In this document: positions 14,760 to 22,396 of the stretch, piece after piece
Layout: each line of letters opens with the position of its first letter
Numbering within the stretch: position 1 is the stretch's first letter
DNA from: Betaproteobacteria bacterium
Lineage (GTDB): Bacteria; Pseudomonadota; Gammaproteobacteria; Burkholderiales; Burkholderiaceae_C
Reading direction: 5' to 3'
Assembly (NCBI GenBank): GCA_009919175.1
Contig: RGCL01000018.1
Location: 1-42,842 of the forward strand
DNA: 42,842 nucleotides
The notes under the pieces: model-generated
Seen by the model: only the letters and a program-made list of their open reading frames with translations
Told to the model about the DNA's origin: nothing
Database searches by the model: none
Program-made: the position numbers and the translations under genes

Positions 14760-15224
14760 TTATAAAAAGCGGTCGAGCAATTTGCGCGAGGCGCGATCGA
14801 GCTTGGAGAGGCTGCGAATCAGATACTGCACGCCATGCTTGTCGCTCACGATGAGCAAGTCACCGCTGATGCGGCGCACGTCTTCTTCGCCTTGCAAGAC
14901 AAAGGTGGATTCACCGCGATGGGTTTTGACCGTCCATTCGCAAGGCGTGACAAAACGGCTCACCGCGATCACGGCCTGGATCTCGGGCAGGAACTCTCGT
15001 TCGTTGACGGCCTCGCGAATGCGATGGGCGAGTTCCGCATCCAGTGCCTTCAAGTCATCGATCCAAGCCAGTTCATGGCCATCGGCATCCAGGATGGAGA
15101 TGAGCTGATCGGGCTGGGCAATGGGAAAGGCGCGCGCGACCGTCACCGGTTCATGGCGCTGGCCTTGGGCGTCGATGTAACACCAGCGACCCAGCTCGTT
15201 GCGCACCACAGTCCAGTCACTCAT
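14760..15224 (-). CDS. DUF1854 family protein, associated with cyanophycin genes
   Basis: A 154-residue protein matching what I recall of the DUF1854 family, whose members sit next to cyanophycin synthetase genes in Betaproteobacteria; its biochemical role is not known. No signal peptide or membrane segment is seen. The sequence begins MSDWTVVRNELGRWCYID, has a central HRIREAVNEREFLPEI segment and ends LSKLDRASRKLLDRFL. Its ATG (15224) lies inside the 3' end of the upstream ABC exporter gene, an eight-base overlap that points to translational coupling and joint action. It may be an accessory factor for the exporter or for cyanophycin handling; that is inference from position. Confidence 0.8.
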   Translation of the reverse strand: MSDWTVVRNELGRWCYIDAQGQRHEPVTVARAFPIAQPDQLISILDADGHELAWIDDLKALDAELAHRIREAVNEREFLPEIQAVIAVSRFVTPCEWTVKTHRGESTFVLQGEEDVRRISGDLLIVSDKHGVQYLIRSLSKLDRASRKLLDRFL

Positions 15225-17523
15225 GGCGGGCCTCCGATCTCACCTCGGCGTTCATTTGCGCATCGTGCATTTGCTGCTGGGCCTCGTGCAAGCGCCAGTA
15301 GGCACCCTGGCGTGTCAGCAATTCATCGTGCTGACCCTGTTCGACCACCTGGCCTTTTTCGAGCACCACCAGGCGGTCCGCCTGCCGCAGGGTGGACAGG
15401 CGGTGGGCGATGGCAATCGTGGTGCGCCCACGCACCAGGTTGTCCAATGCGCGCTGGATTTCCTGCTCGGTCTCGGTGTCCACCGACGAGGTGGCTTCGT
15501 CCAGGATGAGGATTTGCGGGTTGATGAGCAAAGCCCGCGCAATCGAAATGCGTTGACGCTCGCCGCCCGACAAACCCTGCCCGCGCTCACCCACCAAGGA
15601 GTCGTAACCCTGGGGCAGGCGCAAGATGAATTCGTGGGCATGGGCCGCGCGCGCAGCGGCAATGATCTCCTCGCGCGTGGCCCCTGGTTTGCCGTAGGCG
15701 ATGTTGTCGGCAATCGTGCCGAAAAACAAAAACGGCTCTTGCAACACCAAGCCAATGTGGCTGCGGTATTCGGCCAGACGCAACTCGCGGATGTCGACGT
15801 TGTCGACCAGGATGCGCCCCTCGGTGACATCGTGGAAGCGGCAGATGAGGTTGACCAGCGTGCTCTTGCCCGAGCCGCTTGCGCCCACCAGACCAATCAT
15901 CTCGCCGGGTGCGATGTCCAGACTCAGGTCACGGATGACTTGCCGGTTGCCGTAGCGAAAGCCCACTTGCTGCAACTGGATGTGACCCCGCACCTCGTTC
16001 ATGGGGGTGGGGTGATCGGATTCCGGGACACTGGAGGCGTGGTCGAGGATTTCAAAAATGCGCTTGGCGCCGGCAGCGGCCTTCTGGGTGTGCGAGACGA
16101 TGCGACTCATGGAGTCCAGGCGCGAGTAAAAGCGTCCGATGTAAGCCAAAAAGGCGGTCAACACCCCCACGGTGATCTTGCCGTGCGCCACCAGCCAAAT
16201 GCCAAAAGCCCACAACACCAGCAAACCGAATTCGGTCATCAGGGTCACGGTGGGCGAGAACAGCGACCACAGGCGATTGAGCCGGTCGTTGACTTGCAGG
16301 TTGTGCCAATTGGCTTGCTCGAAGCGACGGATTTCCCGCTCCTCCTGAGCAAAAGCCTTGACCACACGGATGCCCGAGATGGTGTCGGAGAGCACATTGG
16401 TGACCTCGGACCACACCCGGTCGATTTTTTCAAAGCCCACCCGCAAGCGATCGCGCACAGAGTGGATGAGCCAGCCGATGAAAGGCAAGGGCAGCAAGGT
16501 TACCAGAGCCAGCCAGGGATCGATGGTGAGCAAGATGATCGCCGTCATGGTGATCATGAGCACGTCGCTGGCGAACTCGAGCAGGTGCAAGGAGAGGAAC
16601 AGGCACAGCCGGTCGGTCTCGCTGCCCACACGGTTGATGAGGTCGCCCGTGCGCTTGCCACCGAAATAGGACATGGGCATGTGCATGAGGTGACGATAAG
16701 CCGTGTTGCGCAAGTCCGCGCCAATGCGCTCGGACACCAGCGCGAGGATGTAGGTGTGCGCCCAGCCCAGTCCCCAGGCCAGGATGGCCGCCGCCATGAG
16801 GCCGCCCAAATACTTGGCCACCAGCCAGGTGTCGATGGCCTGTCCGTTCTGGAAGGGGATGAGCACCTCATCCATGAGGGGCATGGTGAGGTAGGGCGGC
16901 ACCATGTTGGCGGCCGTGGCTGCCAGGGTCAGGCTAAAGCCCAGGATCAGGTTCTTGTGATAGGGCTTGGCAAAGCGCCACAAGCGGTAAAACGCCGCAC
17001 GCTGGTTGACGGGCTCTTCGTCGTTGCTGCAACGCTCACAGGCCTCATTGGCCTCGCTCAGGGCAGCCAGGCATTTGGGGCAATGCCAGCGCGCGATCTC
17101 GGACTTCACATCGGCCGATTCGTGCCGGCTAAGGTGGGCGAGCTGGGCGTGAAAGGTGTCGAGCCACAAGCGCGCCTCGGCCTGCAAACCCAATGTGGCG
17201 CGCCAGGCTGCCCGCCTTTGCTCGCCGTCAAAGACCTCCAGGAGCATGACACCGGCATGATCGCTGAGCTGGGCAGTCAACGCAGGGGTGAGTGCAATCG
17301 TTTCCCAAGGGGTGCTGTCCGAAGAAATTTTGGAATCCGCCGGACCAAAAATCAGCCGGGAAGCTGTCAAAATCAATACGCTTTGGGAGAAGTGCAAGTG
17401 CTGATCAAGATCCAGCTCGATCCAGGCCAGCACCTGCTCATGGTCTGGCAACTGTTGACCCAGTTGATGGCGCCACTTCACGGGCAATGCCCAACGGTCG
17501 CTTGCCAGCCAATCAGATTTCAT
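15217..17523 (-). CDS. ABC exporter with N-terminal PH-like domain and zinc ribbon, cyanophycin locus
   Basis: A 768-residue ABC exporter half-transporter, about 170-190 residues longer than the usual 580. The extra N-terminus has a soluble part with a PH/GRAM-like strand pattern (SVLILTASRLIFG, residues 48-60), then a four-cysteine zinc ribbon (Cys148, 151, 162, 165), before the six-helix membrane domain from about 190. The ATPase part has Walker A GASGSGKST, signature LSGGERQRISIARAL, Walker B ILILDEATSSVD and the H-loop AIAHRLSTL, so it should be active. It diverges from cphA' and overlaps the DUF1854 gene. I recall such transporters being listed as cyanophycin-associated; the substrate is unknown. 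The start is uncertain by a few codons, with no good Shine-Dalgarno. Confidence 0.88.
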   Translation of the reverse strand: MKSDWLASDRWALPVKWRHQLGQQLPDHEQVLAWIELDLDQHLHFSQSVLILTASRLIFGPADSKISSDSTPWETIALTPALTAQLSDHAGVMLLEVFDGEQRRAAWRATLGLQAEARLWLDTFHAQLAHLSRHESADVKSEIARWHCPKCLAALSEANEACERCSNDEEPVNQRAAFYRLWRFAKPYHKNLILGFSLTLAATAANMVPPYLTMPLMDEVLIPFQNGQAIDTWLVAKYLGGLMAAAILAWGLGWAHTYILALVSERIGADLRNTAYRHLMHMPMSYFGGKRTGDLINRVGSETDRLCLFLSLHLLEFASDVLMITMTAIILLTIDPWLALVTLLPLPFIGWLIHSVRDRLRVGFEKIDRVWSEVTNVLSDTISGIRVVKAFAQEEREIRRFEQANWHNLQVNDRLNRLWSLFSPTVTLMTEFGLLVLWAFGIWLVAHGKITVGVLTAFLAYIGRFYSRLDSMSRIVSHTQKAAAGAKRIFEILDHASSVPESDHPTPMNEVRGHIQLQQVGFRYGNRQVIRDLSLDIAPGEMIGLVGASGSGKSTLVNLICRFHDVTEGRILVDNVDIRELRLAEYRSHIGLVLQEPFLFFGTIADNIAYGKPGATREEIIAAARAAHAHEFILRLPQGYDSLVGERGQGLSGGERQRISIARALLINPQILILDEATSSVDTETEQEIQRALDNLVRGRTTIAIAHRLSTLRQADRLVVLEKGQVVEQGQHDELLTRQGAYWRLHEAQQQMHDAQMNAEVRSEARHE

Positions 17524-17618: not shown

Positions 17619-19823
17619 ATGAACTTCCCCGACATCCGCATCCTGCGCACGCGCCATCTGCGAGGCCCCAGCATTTGGACCTACCGCCCGGTGGTCGAGG
17701 CCTGGGTGGACATTGGTCCGCTGGAGGATCACCCCTCCAACCGCCTGCCTGGCTTTAACGAGCGTTTACAAAGCCTGTTGCCCGGTCTGGTGGAACACCG
17801 CTGCGGCATTGGCGAGCGTGGCGGCTTTTTGTTGCGCCTGGCCGATGGCACGTGGCCGGGGCACATCATGGAACACGTTGCGATCGAGTTGCAAAACCTC
17901 GCTGGCATGCAAACCGGTTTTGGCAAGGCACGCGAAACCAGCCAGCGTGGCGTCTACAAGGTGGTGATCCGCACCCGCCAGCCCGAGGTGGGTCTGGCTG
18001 CCCTCGAAGCCGCGCGCGACATCGTCATGGCGTGCATCCGCAACACCCCCATCGACCTCGCGCGCATCGTGGCGCAACTCACCGACAAGGTCGATCGCCT
18101 GTGCCTGGGTCCCAGCACCGCCAGCATCGTCGATGCGGCCACCGACCGGGGCATCCCCAACATCCGCCTCACCGATGGCAACCTGGTGCAGCTTGGTCAC
18201 GGTGCCAAACAGCGCCGAATCTGGACAGCCGAGACCGACAAAACCAGTGCCATTGCCGAAAACATCTCCAGTGACAAAGACCTCACCAAGCGGCTGCTGT
18301 CGCAATGCGGTGTGCCCGTGCCTCAGGGGCAGGTGGTGCAGTCCCCGGATGAAGCTTGGGAGGTGGCGCAGTCTTTGGGGCTGCCTGTGGTGGTCAAACC
18401 CAGTGATGCCAACCACGGACGCGGGGTTGCGCTGGAGTTGCGACATGAAGCCGAGGTGAAAGCCGCGTTTGACGTGGCCCAGCACGAAGGCAGCGAGGTC
18501 ATGGTCGAGAACTTCATCCAGGGCGAGGAACACCGATTGCTGGTCGTGGGCGACCGCATGGTGGCTGCCGCCAAAGGCGAAATGGCCACCATCGTGGGCG
18601 ATGGCGTGCACACTGTGGAGCAGCTCATCGAGACGCAGATCAACTCAGATCCGCGCCGGGGCGAGGAAGAGGACTTCCCCCTGGACACCATCCGCCTGAG
18701 CGAACACCACAACGCGGTGCTCGAAATTGAACGCCAGGGCCTCACACCCAGCAGCATCCCCGAGGCTGGCCGGCGCGTGATCATCCAGCGCAACGGCAAC
18801 ATGAATCACGATGTCACCGACCTGGTTCACCCCGATGTGGCCGCCACGGTGTGTCTGGCTGCGCGCGTGGTGGGGCTGGACATCGCCGGCATTGACATGG
18901 TGGCCTCGGACATCTCCCGCCCCTTGCACGAGCAAGGCGGCGCGATTGTGGAAGTCAATGCAGGACCAGGCCTGCTCATGCACCTCAAGCCCGAGCATGG
19001 CAAGCCCCGTCCGGTGGGCCAAGCGATTGCCGACCACCTCTTCAAGCCCAACGACAACGGGCGCGTGCCCATCGTGGGCGTGCTGGGCACCCAGGCCACC
19101 ACGCAGCTCGCCCACCTCATTGCCTGGCTCATCCACCTCAATGGCGCTCAAACCGGGCTGGCCTGCAGCAATGGCCTCTACATCAACGAAAGCAAGATCC
19201 GCACGGGCGACGCGACACACTTTGACGAGGCCCAGACCCTGCTCATCAACCGCAGCATCGAAGCGGCTGTGTTCGAAACCCGCACCATCCACATCCTCAA
19301 CGACGGCCTGCCCTACGACCGATGCCGTGTTGGCGTGGTGACCGACGGCTGCCACACCCAAGGGCTGGAAGACCACGACATCCAGACCCCTGAGCAATTG
19401 CGCTCGGTGATCCGCACCCAGGTTGATGTGGTCCTGCCCGACGGCGCTGCGGTGCTCAATGCCGACGACCCCGCCGTGGTGGAGCTGGCTGATTTGTGCG
19501 ATGGCGAGGTCATCTTCTACTCGCCCAAATCCAACAACCCTGTGCTGGCCAAGCACAGGCAACAAGGTCAGCGTGCCGTCACCATCGTCGACAACGAGGT
19601 GGTCCTCAAGCGCGGCGAACAAACCACGGTGCTCTTTAACCTGAGCATGCCCGCCATTGCCAAGCTGATCAAACAAGAACAGGTGAGTCACCCCACCTTG
19701 CTTGCAGCCTGTGCCAGCGCCTGGGCCATGGACATCAGCCCTGCGCTCATCCGCGCCGGACTCAAGAATTTCGGTCAACCCCCTCAACGTGTGGTCAGCC
19801 AAATGGCACACGTCAACGCCTAA
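17619..19823 (+). CDS. cphA': Cyanophycin synthetase-like protein CphA' (Mur-ligase site degenerate)
   Basis: A 734-residue paralogue of the downstream CphA, with the same order: N domain (about 1-160), ATP-grasp domain (about 210-480) and Mur-ligase-like domain (from about 485). The ATP-grasp part keeps VVKPSDANHGRGV and IVEVNAGPGLLMHL, but the STGG loop present in CphA is missing: residues 391-398 read RNGNMNHD. The Mur-ligase P-loop is GTQATTQ (490-496) instead of GTNGKTT, so the ATP-binding lysine is gone. The C-terminal domain is also shorter by about 100 residues. The N domain has HIMEH (82-86) followed by Glu90, a likely zinc site. It probably works with CphA as primer maker, dipeptide ligase or partner subunit; that role is inferred. 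Its stop overlaps the cphA start by one base. Confidence 0.9.
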   Translation: MNFPDIRILRTRHLRGPSIWTYRPVVEAWVDIGPLEDHPSNRLPGFNERLQSLLPGLVEHRCGIGERGGFLLRLADGTWPGHIMEHVAIELQNLAGMQTGFGKARETSQRGVYKVVIRTRQPEVGLAALEAARDIVMACIRNTPIDLARIVAQLTDKVDRLCLGPSTASIVDAATDRGIPNIRLTDGNLVQLGHGAKQRRIWTAETDKTSAIAENISSDKDLTKRLLSQCGVPVPQGQVVQSPDEAWEVAQSLGLPVVVKPSDANHGRGVALELRHEAEVKAAFDVAQHEGSEVMVENFIQGEEHRLLVVGDRMVAAAKGEMATIVGDGVHTVEQLIETQINSDPRRGEEEDFPLDTIRLSEHHNAVLEIERQGLTPSSIPEAGRRVIIQRNGNMNHDVTDLVHPDVAATVCLAARVVGLDIAGIDMVASDISRPLHEQGGAIVEVNAGPGLLMHLKPEHGKPRPVGQAIADHLFKPNDNGRVPIVGVLGTQATTQLAHLIAWLIHLNGAQTGLACSNGLYINESKIRTGDATHFDEAQTLLINRSIEAAVFETRTIHILNDGLPYDRCRVGVVTDGCHTQGLEDHDIQTPEQLRSVIRTQVDVVLPDGAAVLNADDPAVVELADLCDGEVIFYSPKSNNPVLAKHRQQGQRAVTIVDNEVVLKRGEQTTVLFNLSMPAIAKLIKQEQVSHPTLLAACASAWAMDISPALIRAGLKNFGQPPQRVVSQMAHVNA

Positions 19824-22396
19824 TGGACATCTCCCGCATCCGTCCCCTGCGCGGCCCCAACCTGTGGTCGCGCCACACTGCCATCGAAGCCCTGGTTCGA
19901 TGTGAATCCCCCACCGAACTGGTGCTGCCCAGCGTCATCGAAGCGCGCATGCGCCAGCGCTTTCCGGGCCTGGGTCTGTTTGCGCCCATTGATTCGCGCA
20001 GCCCCGTGAGCCTGGCTCATGCCCTGGAAACCGCCACGCTGTACTTGCAAATCCAGGCGGGCTGTCAGGTCACCTTCAGCCGCTCCACCCTCACGCCCGA
20101 AGCCGGGCTTTATCAGGTGGTGGTCGAGTACAGCGTCGAAGAAGTGGGACGCCTGGCCTTGACGCTGGCCGAAGCGCTTTGCCGCGCGGCCATGGATGAC
20201 ACCCCCTTCGATGCCCAAGCCGCACTCGACCAACTGCGTGAACTCGATGAGGATTTGCGCCTGGGTCCCTCCACCGACTCCATCGTGCAAGCGGCCATCA
20301 AACGCGGCATCCCGTATCGCCGCCTCACCGATGGCTCGCTGGTGCAATTTGGCTGGGGCAGCAAGCAGCGCCGCATCCAGGCCGCTGAGATCGATGCCAC
20401 CAGCGCCATTGCCGAATCGATTGCCCAGGACAAGGCACTCACCAAACGCTTGCTGCATGCAGCAGGGGTCCCAGTGCCCCTGGGCGAGATCGTGGAAGAA
20501 GAACACGAGGCCTGGCCTGCTGCCCAGCGCATCGGTTTGCCCGTGGTGGTCAAGCCCTTGGACGGCAACCAGGGCAAGGGTGTGACGGTCAACATCCGCA
20601 ATGAAGAAGAAGTGCGCCAGGCCTTTCGCAGTGCCAAGCGCTTTCGCGACAACGTGATCGTCGAGCGCTACTTGCCCGGCGGCGACTACCGCTTGTTGGT
20701 GGTGGGCGATCGCCTGGTGGCCGCTGCCCGGCGCGAGCCACCCCAGGTCATTGGCGACGGCATTTGCACCATCCGCGAGTTGGTCGACCAGGTCAACACC
20801 GATCCCCTGCGCGGCGATGGCCATGCCACCCCCCTCACCAAGATCCGCTTTGACGACATTGCCCTGGGCTGTCTGGCCGATCAAGGCCTCAAAGCCGATG
20901 ACATCCCGCCCAAGGGCGCACGGGTGATCCTGCGCAACAACGCCAACCTCTCCACCGGCGGCACCGCCACCGACGTCACTGACGAAGTCCATCCCCAGGT
21001 GGCCGCCAGCGCTGTTCGCGCCGCACAAATGGTGGGGCTGCATGTGTGCGGGGTTGATGTGGTGTGCGAGAGCGTGCTCAAACCCCTGGAGGAGCAATCG
21101 GGCGGCATCGTCGAGGTCAATGCCGCACCTGGCTTGCGCATGCACCTGCGCCCCTCCTTTGGCAAAGGCCGTCAAGTGGGCGAGGCCATCGTCGACACCG
21201 TCTTTGCCCCTGGTGAAGATGGCCGCATCCCCGTGGTGGCCGTCACCGGCACCAATGGCAAGACCACCACGGTTCGCCTCATTGCCCATTTGTTCCGCTG
21301 CAGCGGCTTGCGCGTGGGCATGACCAACACCGACGGCGTGACCGTCAATGGGCGCGTGATCGACACGGGCGATTGCTCAGGCCCGCGCAGCGCGCGCAAC
21401 GTGCTCATGCACCCCGACGTGGACGCCGCCGTTTTGGAAACCGCGCGCGGCGGCATGCTGCGCGAAGGCCTGGCCTTTGACCGCTGCAGCGTGGCTGTGG
21501 TGACCAACATCGGCATGGGCGACCATCTCGGGCTCAACTACATCACCACCGTGGAAGACCTCGCGGTGCTCAAGCGCGTCATCGTGCAAAACGTCGCCCC
21601 CAGCGGCATGGCTGTGCTCAATGCCTCGGACCCCATCGTGGTGGCCATGGCGCCGCATTGCCCAGGCGAAGTCACCTTTTTTGCCATCGACCCTCACCAC
21701 CCCGTGCTGGCCACCCACCGTGCCCAGGGCAAGCGCGTGGTCTTTGTGGAAGACGACGAGATCGTGGCCATGCAGGGCAAGATGCAAATGCGCTTCTCGC
21801 TCTCCAACATCCCCCTCACCCACCACGGCTCCATCGACTTTCAGGTTGAAAACGCCATGGCAGCGATTGCCGCCGCCTGGGCAAGCCAGGTCAGCTGGGA
21901 TCACATCGCATCGGGGCTGGCCAGCTTTGTGAGCGACCACAACGCGGTGCCGGGGCGTTTCAACGTGTTCCATTACCGCGGGGCGACCCTCATTGCCGAC
22001 TATGGTCACAACCCCGATGCCATCAAGGCCCTGGTGCAGGCGGTGAGCAACATGCCCGCCGAGCGCCGCATGGTGGTCATCAGCGGCGCGGGCGACCGTC
22101 GCGACGAGGACTTGCGCGAGCAAACCCGTTTGATTGGCGACGCCTTTGACGATGTCATCCTCTACCAGGATGCCTGCCAACGCGGCCGCAAGGATGGCGA
22201 AGTGCTGGCCTTGCTGCGCGATGGCCTCAAAGCCGCCAAGCAAACCCGCAGCGTCGAAGAGATCCGTGGCGAGTTCCTCGCCATTGACCGCGCCCTCGAA
22301 CGCCTCTCGCCAGGTGACTTGTGCCTCATCCTCATCGACCAGGTGGACGCGGCCTTGGCACACATCAATCAGCGCGTGGCGTCTGTCACGGCCTGA
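19823..22396 (+). CDS. cphA: Cyanophycin synthetase CphA
   Basis: ATP-dependent ligase that builds cyanophycin (multi-L-arginyl-poly-L-aspartate), a nitrogen and carbon reserve stored as cytoplasmic granules. At 857 residues it has the normal length. The ATP-grasp domain, which adds Asp to the backbone, has VVKPLDGNQGKGV, the STGG loop (377-380) and IVEVNAAPGLRMHL. The Mur-ligase domain, which adds Arg to the side chain, has the intact P-loop GTNGKTT (476-482), DAAVLETARGG and DYGHNPDA. In the N domain the site aligned with HIMEH of CphA' reads HALET (66-70), so the second histidine is lost and a primer-generating activity is unlikely. Its ATG shares one base with the cphA' stop (TAATG). Confidence 0.97.
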   Translation: MDISRIRPLRGPNLWSRHTAIEALVRCESPTELVLPSVIEARMRQRFPGLGLFAPIDSRSPVSLAHALETATLYLQIQAGCQVTFSRSTLTPEAGLYQVVVEYSVEEVGRLALTLAEALCRAAMDDTPFDAQAALDQLRELDEDLRLGPSTDSIVQAAIKRGIPYRRLTDGSLVQFGWGSKQRRIQAAEIDATSAIAESIAQDKALTKRLLHAAGVPVPLGEIVEEEHEAWPAAQRIGLPVVVKPLDGNQGKGVTVNIRNEEEVRQAFRSAKRFRDNVIVERYLPGGDYRLLVVGDRLVAAARREPPQVIGDGICTIRELVDQVNTDPLRGDGHATPLTKIRFDDIALGCLADQGLKADDIPPKGARVILRNNANLSTGGTATDVTDEVHPQVAASAVRAAQMVGLHVCGVDVVCESVLKPLEEQSGGIVEVNAAPGLRMHLRPSFGKGRQVGEAIVDTVFAPGEDGRIPVVAVTGTNGKTTTVRLIAHLFRCSGLRVGMTNTDGVTVNGRVIDTGDCSGPRSARNVLMHPDVDAAVLETARGGMLREGLAFDRCSVAVVTNIGMGDHLGLNYITTVEDLAVLKRVIVQNVAPSGMAVLNASDPIVVAMAPHCPGEVTFFAIDPHHPVLATHRAQGKRVVFVEDDEIVAMQGKMQMRFSLSNIPLTHHGSIDFQVENAMAAIAAAWASQVSWDHIASGLASFVSDHNAVPGRFNVFHYRGATLIADYGHNPDAIKALVQAVSNMPAERRMVVISGAGDRRDEDLREQTRLIGDAFDDVILYQDACQRGRKDGEVLALLRDGLKAAKQTRSVEEIRGEFLAIDRALERLSPGDLCLILIDQVDAALAHINQRVASVTA

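Follow-up and report, generated by a model that had tools for sequence, protein, structure and literature searches.

Why would a bacterium keep two cyanophycin synthetase genes side by side when each encodes a protein without sites that the other holds? The question is raised by cphA' and cphA, adjacent genes on contig RGCL01000018.1 of the Betaproteobacteria bacterium assembly GCA_009919175.1 (a genome of 2.93 Mb); the window analysed here is that whole contig of 42,842 nucleotides, and positions are given in its coordinates. The answer that we favour, with a probability of about 0.6, is that duplication of one synthetase gave rise to CphA' and CphA as two specialised halves, CphA' priming and CphA elongating, and that their product is handed to an exporter rather than stored. 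Beyond these two proteins the genome gave no match to the Cyanophycin_syn domain at an E-value of 0.001. The features of the pair are listed below; residue numbers of sites follow SuCphA1, the enzyme of Synechocystis sp. UTEX2470, unless they are said to be those of CphA' or CphA.

17619..19823, + strand: cphA', 734 amino acids, with an intact N domain, an altered G domain, a decayed M core and no M lid
17802..17888, + strand: putative zinc hydrolase motif in the N domain of CphA', formed by Cys62, His82-x-x-Glu85-His86 and Glu90 (aligned to C59/H79/E82/H83/E87 of SuCphA1)
18096..19064, + strand: G domain of CphA', approximate limits from SuCphA1 numbering (residue alignment; residue roles from PMC9427784)
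19086..19106, + strand: degenerate M-domain P-loop GTQATTQ of CphA', residues 490-496 (string search)
19821..19825, + strand: TAATG, stop of CphA' and start of CphA, overlapping by one base (junction sequence)
19823..22396, + strand: cphA, 857 amino acids, without the N site but with the G-domain aspartate pocket, Gln250 in place of His267, and an intact M domain
20018..20044, + strand: what is left in CphA of the N-domain motif, HALET (66-70) plus Tyr74 (string search)
20570..20572, + strand: Gln250 of CphA, which aligns with the catalytic His267
21248..21268, + strand: intact M-domain P-loop GTNGKTT of CphA, residues 476-482 (string search)

A genome was called a pair genome if its best match to CphA' had an E-value of 1e-140 or better, as was the case in 135 of 399 genomes of the order; G136, with a match of 5e-67 and 79% completeness, was counted as a non-pair genome. 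Residue counts refer to 101 CphA' proteins (that of the window and 100 fetched from the 135, down the hit list with gaps, 34 pair genomes thus lying outside the fetched loci) and to 99 CphA proteins, the contigs of loci L087 and L096 ending before CphA. Both genes are adjacent and on one strand, with CphA' first, in 98 of the 100 fetched loci, and the other two lie at a contig edge. A second set, of 80 named loci, was found with a pattern that contains HxxEH and is uninformative on the N site of CphA'; five of its CphA' cores duplicate ones in the first set, so that the two sets together comprise 181 rows and 176 distinct CphA'. Properties of published enzymes are taken from passages of the papers cited.

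The N-domain and M-domain sites

The initial annotation had proposed that the two synthetases have lost opposite active sites, pointing to HIMEH (82-86) plus Glu90 and the degenerate P-loop in CphA', and to HALET plus Tyr74 and the intact P-loop in CphA, and all of these motifs were found by string search at the residues named. HIMEH does coincide with the hydrolase site of the N domain: it aligns with HIVEH (H79, E82, H83) in SuCphA1, whose N-domain site has been published and described as an endo-cyanophycinase (Sharon et al., 2022; PMC9262961). A third zinc ligand, Cys62, corresponds to Cys59 of SuCphA1, 19 residues before the first histidine, so that the Cx19HxxEH site of the two proteins aligns residue for residue, and His60, Phe70, Arg73 and Glu90 match the further N-site residues His57, Phe67, Arg70 and Glu87. 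The N domain of CphA' is thus a putative zinc endo-cyanophycinase site, both zinc binding and cleavage being judged from its residues. The tetrad C59/H79/E82/H83 (hereafter the N tetrad) is intact in 101/101 CphA' and in 0/99 CphA; it is invariant in all 176 distinct CphA', for which it should be borne in mind that 80 of the 181 underlying rows were preselected for HxxEH and the other 101 were not. His57, Phe67, Arg70 and Glu87 are likewise kept in 101/101 CphA'.

CphA of the window has Phe53, Pro55 (at the cysteine position), His66, Glu69, Thr70 and Tyr74, with a gap opposite F67 and R70. The earlier statement that the second histidine and the glutamate are gone therefore holds for this protein (Thr70, Tyr74), and across the family it is refined rather than repeated: the cysteine is gone as well, the second histidine is mostly gone, the first histidine persists in 87/99 and the glutamate of HxxEH in 68/99, and Glu87 is kept in 10/99, while His57, Phe67 and Arg70 are kept in none. 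HxxEH survives in three CphA (L091, L093, L106), each without the cysteine.

The M domain gives the reverse picture. CphA has the M-site features of CphA1, namely the P-loop, Arg561, Asp585-His586 and the lid (Mur_ligase_C), and the hexad N497/K499/T500/R561/D585/H586 (the M hexad) is intact in 99/99 CphA and in 0/101 CphA'. Among the window proteins Mur_ligase_M and Mur_ligase_C of Pfam match CphA and not CphA', and the shorter C-terminus noticed earlier in CphA' is due to the missing Mur-ligase lid. CphA scores 982.6 bits against the TIGR02068 equivalog, above its cut-off of 850, and CphA' scores 740 bits, below it; the overall fold of CphA' is nevertheless N-G-M and CphA1-like. Loss of the N and M sites is reciprocal in 99/99 complete pairs, which bears out the co-variation expected between HxxEH and M-site loss, and in 72/77 pairs of the second set, the other five having short CphA frames of 413-543 amino acids.

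One part of the original formulation did not survive the wider sample. Loss of the P-loop lysine is not the hallmark of CphA', as K499 is kept in 32/101 (with N497 and T500 in 10/101) and P-loop, Asp-His and lid are all present in the 12 of 181 rows discussed below. The near-universal M-site losses in CphA' are instead those of Arg561, kept in 0/101, and Lys602, kept in 1/101; the lid is gone in 169/181 rows. If Lys602 acts like the carbamylated lysine of Mur ligases, its loss could by itself cripple the M site of CphA'.

The G domain and the origin of the pair

The remaining site is altered in both proteins. In TeCphA1 the incoming aspartate is held by Arg323, Asn394 and Ser396 and its alpha-carboxylate by Arg458, and the acyl-phosphate is held by His267 and Arg309 (PMC9427784). 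CphA' of the window keeps Lys220, Lys260, His266, Arg306, Asp426, Glu445 and Asn447 in its own numbering, but Gly320 replaces Arg323, Leu453 replaces Arg458, and the loop 396-399 is deleted. The same holds across the family, in which Lys220 (100/101), Lys261 (101), His267 (98), Arg309 (101), Asp431 (101), Glu450 (99), Asn452 (101) and Asn394 (91) are kept, Arg323 has become Gly in 96/101 and Arg458 Leu in 97/101, and residues 396-399 are deleted in 101/101. The aspartate pocket is consequently intact in 0/101 CphA', against 99/99 CphA that keep Arg323, Ser396 and Arg458.

In CphA it is the catalytic histidine that has changed. His267, which is catalytic in SuCphA1 and TeCphA1, is Gln in 97/99 CphA and His in 98/101 CphA', and by this residue CphA is classed as a variant of CphA1. 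CphA retains the histidine in L109, in L112 and in two of the three f142 family pairs, and the H267Q change therefore arose after the split or has reverted. We rejected the change as proof of a dead G site: locus L190 encodes a related ATP-grasp enzyme, an N-acetylglutaminylglutamine synthetase by TIGR03103 (921 bits, cut-off 569), which has Gln at the same position, although its substrates differ and it serves only to show that Gln occurs there in another ligase family. Both paralogues have lost Glu215, which contacts the side chain of the arginine at the chain end; 98 CphA' and 98 CphA have a Glu at the preceding position.

A comparison at the positions conserved among 22 single CphA1s (including SuCphA1, TeCphA1 and partial chains of TmCphA1 and AbCphA1, and excluding the divergent L166 and L179) separates the three domains of CphA'. 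Its N domain keeps 14/20 such positions with no fixed switch; its G domain keeps 55/79 and has nine fixed switches (R323G, R458L, the deletion of S396, G398 and G399, and others); its M core keeps 9/40, with 23 drifting and no fixed switch. For CphA the corresponding figures are 6/20 in N, 66/79 in G, 33/40 in the M core and 15/15 in the lid, and mean identity among genomes in the M core is 0.46 for CphA' and 0.68 for CphA. Drift is how a dead site behaves, whereas fixed switches suggest a new function, so CphA' reads as a protein whose N domain has been held, whose G domain has been re-tooled and whose M domain has decayed. We infer that its G site probably still uses ATP but takes another acceptor.

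How such a pair came about is suggested by its relatives. In a FastTree phylogeny of the N, G and M core regions of 104 sequences, with two cyanobacterial chains as the root, CphA' and CphA form sister clades (support 1.00 for the two together, 1.00 for CphA' and 0.87 for CphA), and their joint clade is sister, with support 1.00, to the single CphA1s of L170-L172, which carry all three sites; a tree of the G domain gave the same grouping, with no support printed for the CphA clade. The topology and the residue patterns indicate that a complete three-site CphA1 was duplicated and that the copies then lost complementary sites. Eighteen single CphA1s were fetched, from Deinococcus, Rhizobium, Sphingobium and Ruegeria plasmids and from genomes of the class and order. 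The N tetrad is present in 17/18 (the exception is L182), the G residues H267, R323, S396 and R458 in 18/18, and the M residues are intact except for T500S in two (L162, L164).

Several other arrangements were seen. The CphA' at L169:7163-9145 (genome G489) aligns in two pieces, with several G residues unaligned and the N motif kept, and may be decaying or misassembled. In five cases a single CphA1 gene of the TmCphA1 type adjoins a gene for a protein of 558-593 amino acids with an intact M-type site and no aligned G site (L174:8491-10272, L175:10791-12467, L176:5668-7386, L177:10836-12530 and L178:735-2450), and the Ruegeria annotation places a protein of the Mur ligase family beside CphA1. 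L188 and L192 (genome G027) encode adjacent proteins of about 580-610 amino acids that combine a CphA-like G domain with a degenerate, lidless M domain, perhaps another ligase pair. The short proteins L151, L180 and L181 were considered as CphA2 and dropped, since L181 alone and profiles of the three proteins match CphA1 chains better than CphA2.

An exporter in place of cyanophycinase

Divergent from cphA' and cphA, on the opposite strand, lie two further genes.

15217..17523, - strand: ATP-binding cassette (ABC) exporter, 768 amino acids, its N-terminal part bearing a zinc-ribbon-like CxxC...CxxC in residues 148-165 (NCBIfam NF052233, 1292 bits, cut-off 880)
14760..15224, - strand: DUF1854 protein, 154 amino acids, its gene overlapping that of the ABC exporter (NCBIfam NF052234, 197 bits, cut-off 150)

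Both proteins exceed the cut-offs of families that NCBIfam names "cyanophycin metabolism-associated", so the association of pair and exporter is already known to its curators, although neither a substrate or mechanism nor a split of active sites appears in the family descriptions. A homologue of the exporter is present in 93/100 fetched loci (counted over the stretch retrieved around the pair, at most 8 kb away from it) and one of DUF1854 in 92/100. Across the order DUF1854 was found in 132/399 genomes, all of them pair genomes, that is in 132/135 pair genomes and 0/264 others, and the association holds also where its gene sits far from the pair (as in G205 and G146). Of the three pair genomes without it, G122 and G313 have contigs that end before its expected place, and G287 is 82% complete. 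In the sample of the class it was found in 10/369 genomes, namely all six pair genomes of that sample and four genomes without a CphA match at 1e-30; among these four, G581 and G399 have an adjacent ABC homologue of 39% identity, and that of G708 (78% complete, on a 3.6 kb contig) is 65% identical. The DUF1854 family also matches in a control genome, that of Sulfolobus acidocaldarius. The N-terminal extension of the exporter carries its zinc-ribbon-like CPKC...CERC (residues 148-165), a pattern shared by 80/94 homologues. The predicted model of the DUF1854 protein is mostly strands (mean predicted local distance difference test score, pLDDT, 93; predicted template modelling score, pTM, 0.66) and gave no fold match in the PDB at 1e-3.

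Cyanophycinase shows the opposite distribution. We called a genome single-type if its best match lay between 1e-133 and 1e-84, which gave 11 genomes, five of which were inspected (L182-L186). Cyanophycinase was found above cut-off in 11/11 single-type genomes against 10/135 pair genomes, and its gene lies directly upstream of the single CphA1s of L170-L172; the genome of the window itself has no cyanophycinase at 1e-10, and so lacks this mark of a storage system. The exchange of cyanophycinase for the exporter goes with the split of the synthetase. That betaproteobacterial pairs come without cyanophycinase has already been remarked in two papers. Two cyanophycin synthetase genes have been reported in Sideroxydans (adjacent), Herminiimonas and R. 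eutropha, those of the first two being read as storage genes in the passages concerned. Krehenbrink is said to have given an early description of cphA' in 2002. In the literature searched, which mostly excludes subscription papers, no paper was found that contains "DUF1854" and, by title or opening of the abstract, none on the exporter or the reciprocal split.

How the two halves might work together

In the scheme that we favour, CphA would elongate the chain, adding aspartate at its G site and arginine at its M site, and would depend on CphA', which would cut chains at its zinc site into short primers and so set chain length, acting on CphA either in trans or within a mixed oligomer. The G site of CphA' would join a unit other than free aspartate, a dipeptide or an end group, to the end of the chain, and the product would pass to the ABC exporter instead of being stored. 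The priming step has a precedent. The primer-dependent TmCphA1 of Tatumella morbirosei became primer-independent when combined with a SuCphA1 whose G and M sites were dead, and SuCphA1 protomers that carry the N site and the G and M sites separately work, somewhat less well without primer (PMC9262961). By analogy, CphA' and CphA may be the natural form of this trans-priming arrangement, with the difference that SuCphA1 holds all three sites in one protein, whereas here N is in CphA', M is in CphA and G is altered in both. TmCphA1 resembles CphA in having G and M sites and no N motif (all four residues are missing, and the enzyme is primer-dependent; PMC9262961), but it keeps His267 where CphA has Gln, and no CphA' partner is mentioned in the passages that describe it.

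The initial annotation had already suggested that CphA' makes primers and CphA polymerises. The published trans-priming and the TmCphA1-like state of the CphA N domain speak for that suggestion; the fixed H267Q and the reported lack of cyanophycin in Ralstonia eutropha complicate its second half. On the further idea that CphA' perhaps ligates dipeptide, the residues show a lost aspartate pocket beside a retained ATP site. The suggestion left out the altered G sites, the exporter, DUF1854 and the rarity of cyanophycinase, the last three of which point away from plain storage. Split pair and exporter together suggest that the two proteins work as a pair and that their product may be meant for export. 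A bolder and tentative version, to which we would give decidedly less weight, is that of an obligate mixed synthetase, neither half of which is complete: CphA would add aspartate and arginine, CphA' would measure the chain, cut it at the zinc site and attach an end group or some unit other than aspartate at its altered ATP-grasp site, and the ABC-DUF1854 system would secrete the finished oligopeptide.

A number of observations count against the favoured scheme. Twelve of the 181 CphA' rows retain lid, P-loop and Asp-His, including those of Cupriavidus alkaliphilus, C. pinatubonensis and Cupriavidus sp. U2, and M decay is therefore incomplete in some lineages; in these three Cupriavidus pairs the N and G sites follow the general pattern and Arg561 is lost, but CphA' still has its lid and the other M-site residues. 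CphA' has Arg at position 267 in 10 of the 176 distinct sequences, and with H267Q in 97/99 the G site of CphA might be weak. The ABC and DUF1854 homologues of G581 and G399 occur without CphA, the ten pair genomes with a cyanophycinase above cut-off become 14 at 1e-10, and within the same literature no paper was found that ties the exporter to any substrate. According to reviews, no cyanophycin was obtained with the homologues of R. eutropha H16 or from its wild type, whether in the native host or in E. coli (PMC8560796, PMC11362209). Finally, the activity, complex formation and product of the pair are deduced from sequence and genome context.

The strongest competitor, which we nonetheless consider unlikely, is that the pair makes ordinary intracellular cyanophycin, with CphA' as an accessory primase that perhaps also mobilises the polymer, its G domain a scaffold and the exporter incidental. 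The N/M partition and the trans-priming system fit this account too, CphA keeps its aspartate pocket and M site in 99/99, and the 125/135 pair genomes without cyanophycinase above cut-off would need another hydrolase, which CphA' could supply. A mere scaffold, however, would hardly show nine fixed switches in the G domain with the ATP residues kept, and neither the nearly absolute association with DUF1854 nor the report on R. eutropha sits well with storage. It is improbable that CphA' is instead a CphA2-like ligase of beta-Asp-Arg dipeptides. CphA2, known from the structures 7ta5 of Gloeothece citriformis and 8fxh of Stanieria, is without the M P-loop and lid (PMC9427784), as is CphA' of the window, and since Arg323 binds the beta-carboxylate of aspartate, its loss would suit an acceptor in which arginine blocks that group; but CphA2 has no N motif, which is present in 101/101 CphA', its fold is further from CphA' than that of CphA1, and CphA' is a duplicate beside CphA, and on the first two of these points we rejected CphA' as a true CphA2. 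Least credible of all is a decaying paralogue that has residual N activity but plays no part in the pathway, for which the drift at 23/40 M-core positions and the lid loss might be cited, but against which stand the invariant zinc tetrad (with the preselection noted above), the retention of both genes in every fetched locus not cut by a contig end, and the fixed switches in G.

The two synthetase copies are not redundant, each being without sites that the other holds, and the package to which they belong includes an exporter; the residue pattern described here offers a concrete and testable reason for the failure to obtain cyanophycin from the R. eutropha homologues. The engineered split in which one protomer carries the N site and another the G and M sites has its natural counterpart in the CphA'/CphA pair. 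If the bolder version is correct, there would be a pathway for a secreted cyanophycin-like peptide across Burkholderiales, which would explain both that failure and the rarity of cyanophycinase in pair genomes.

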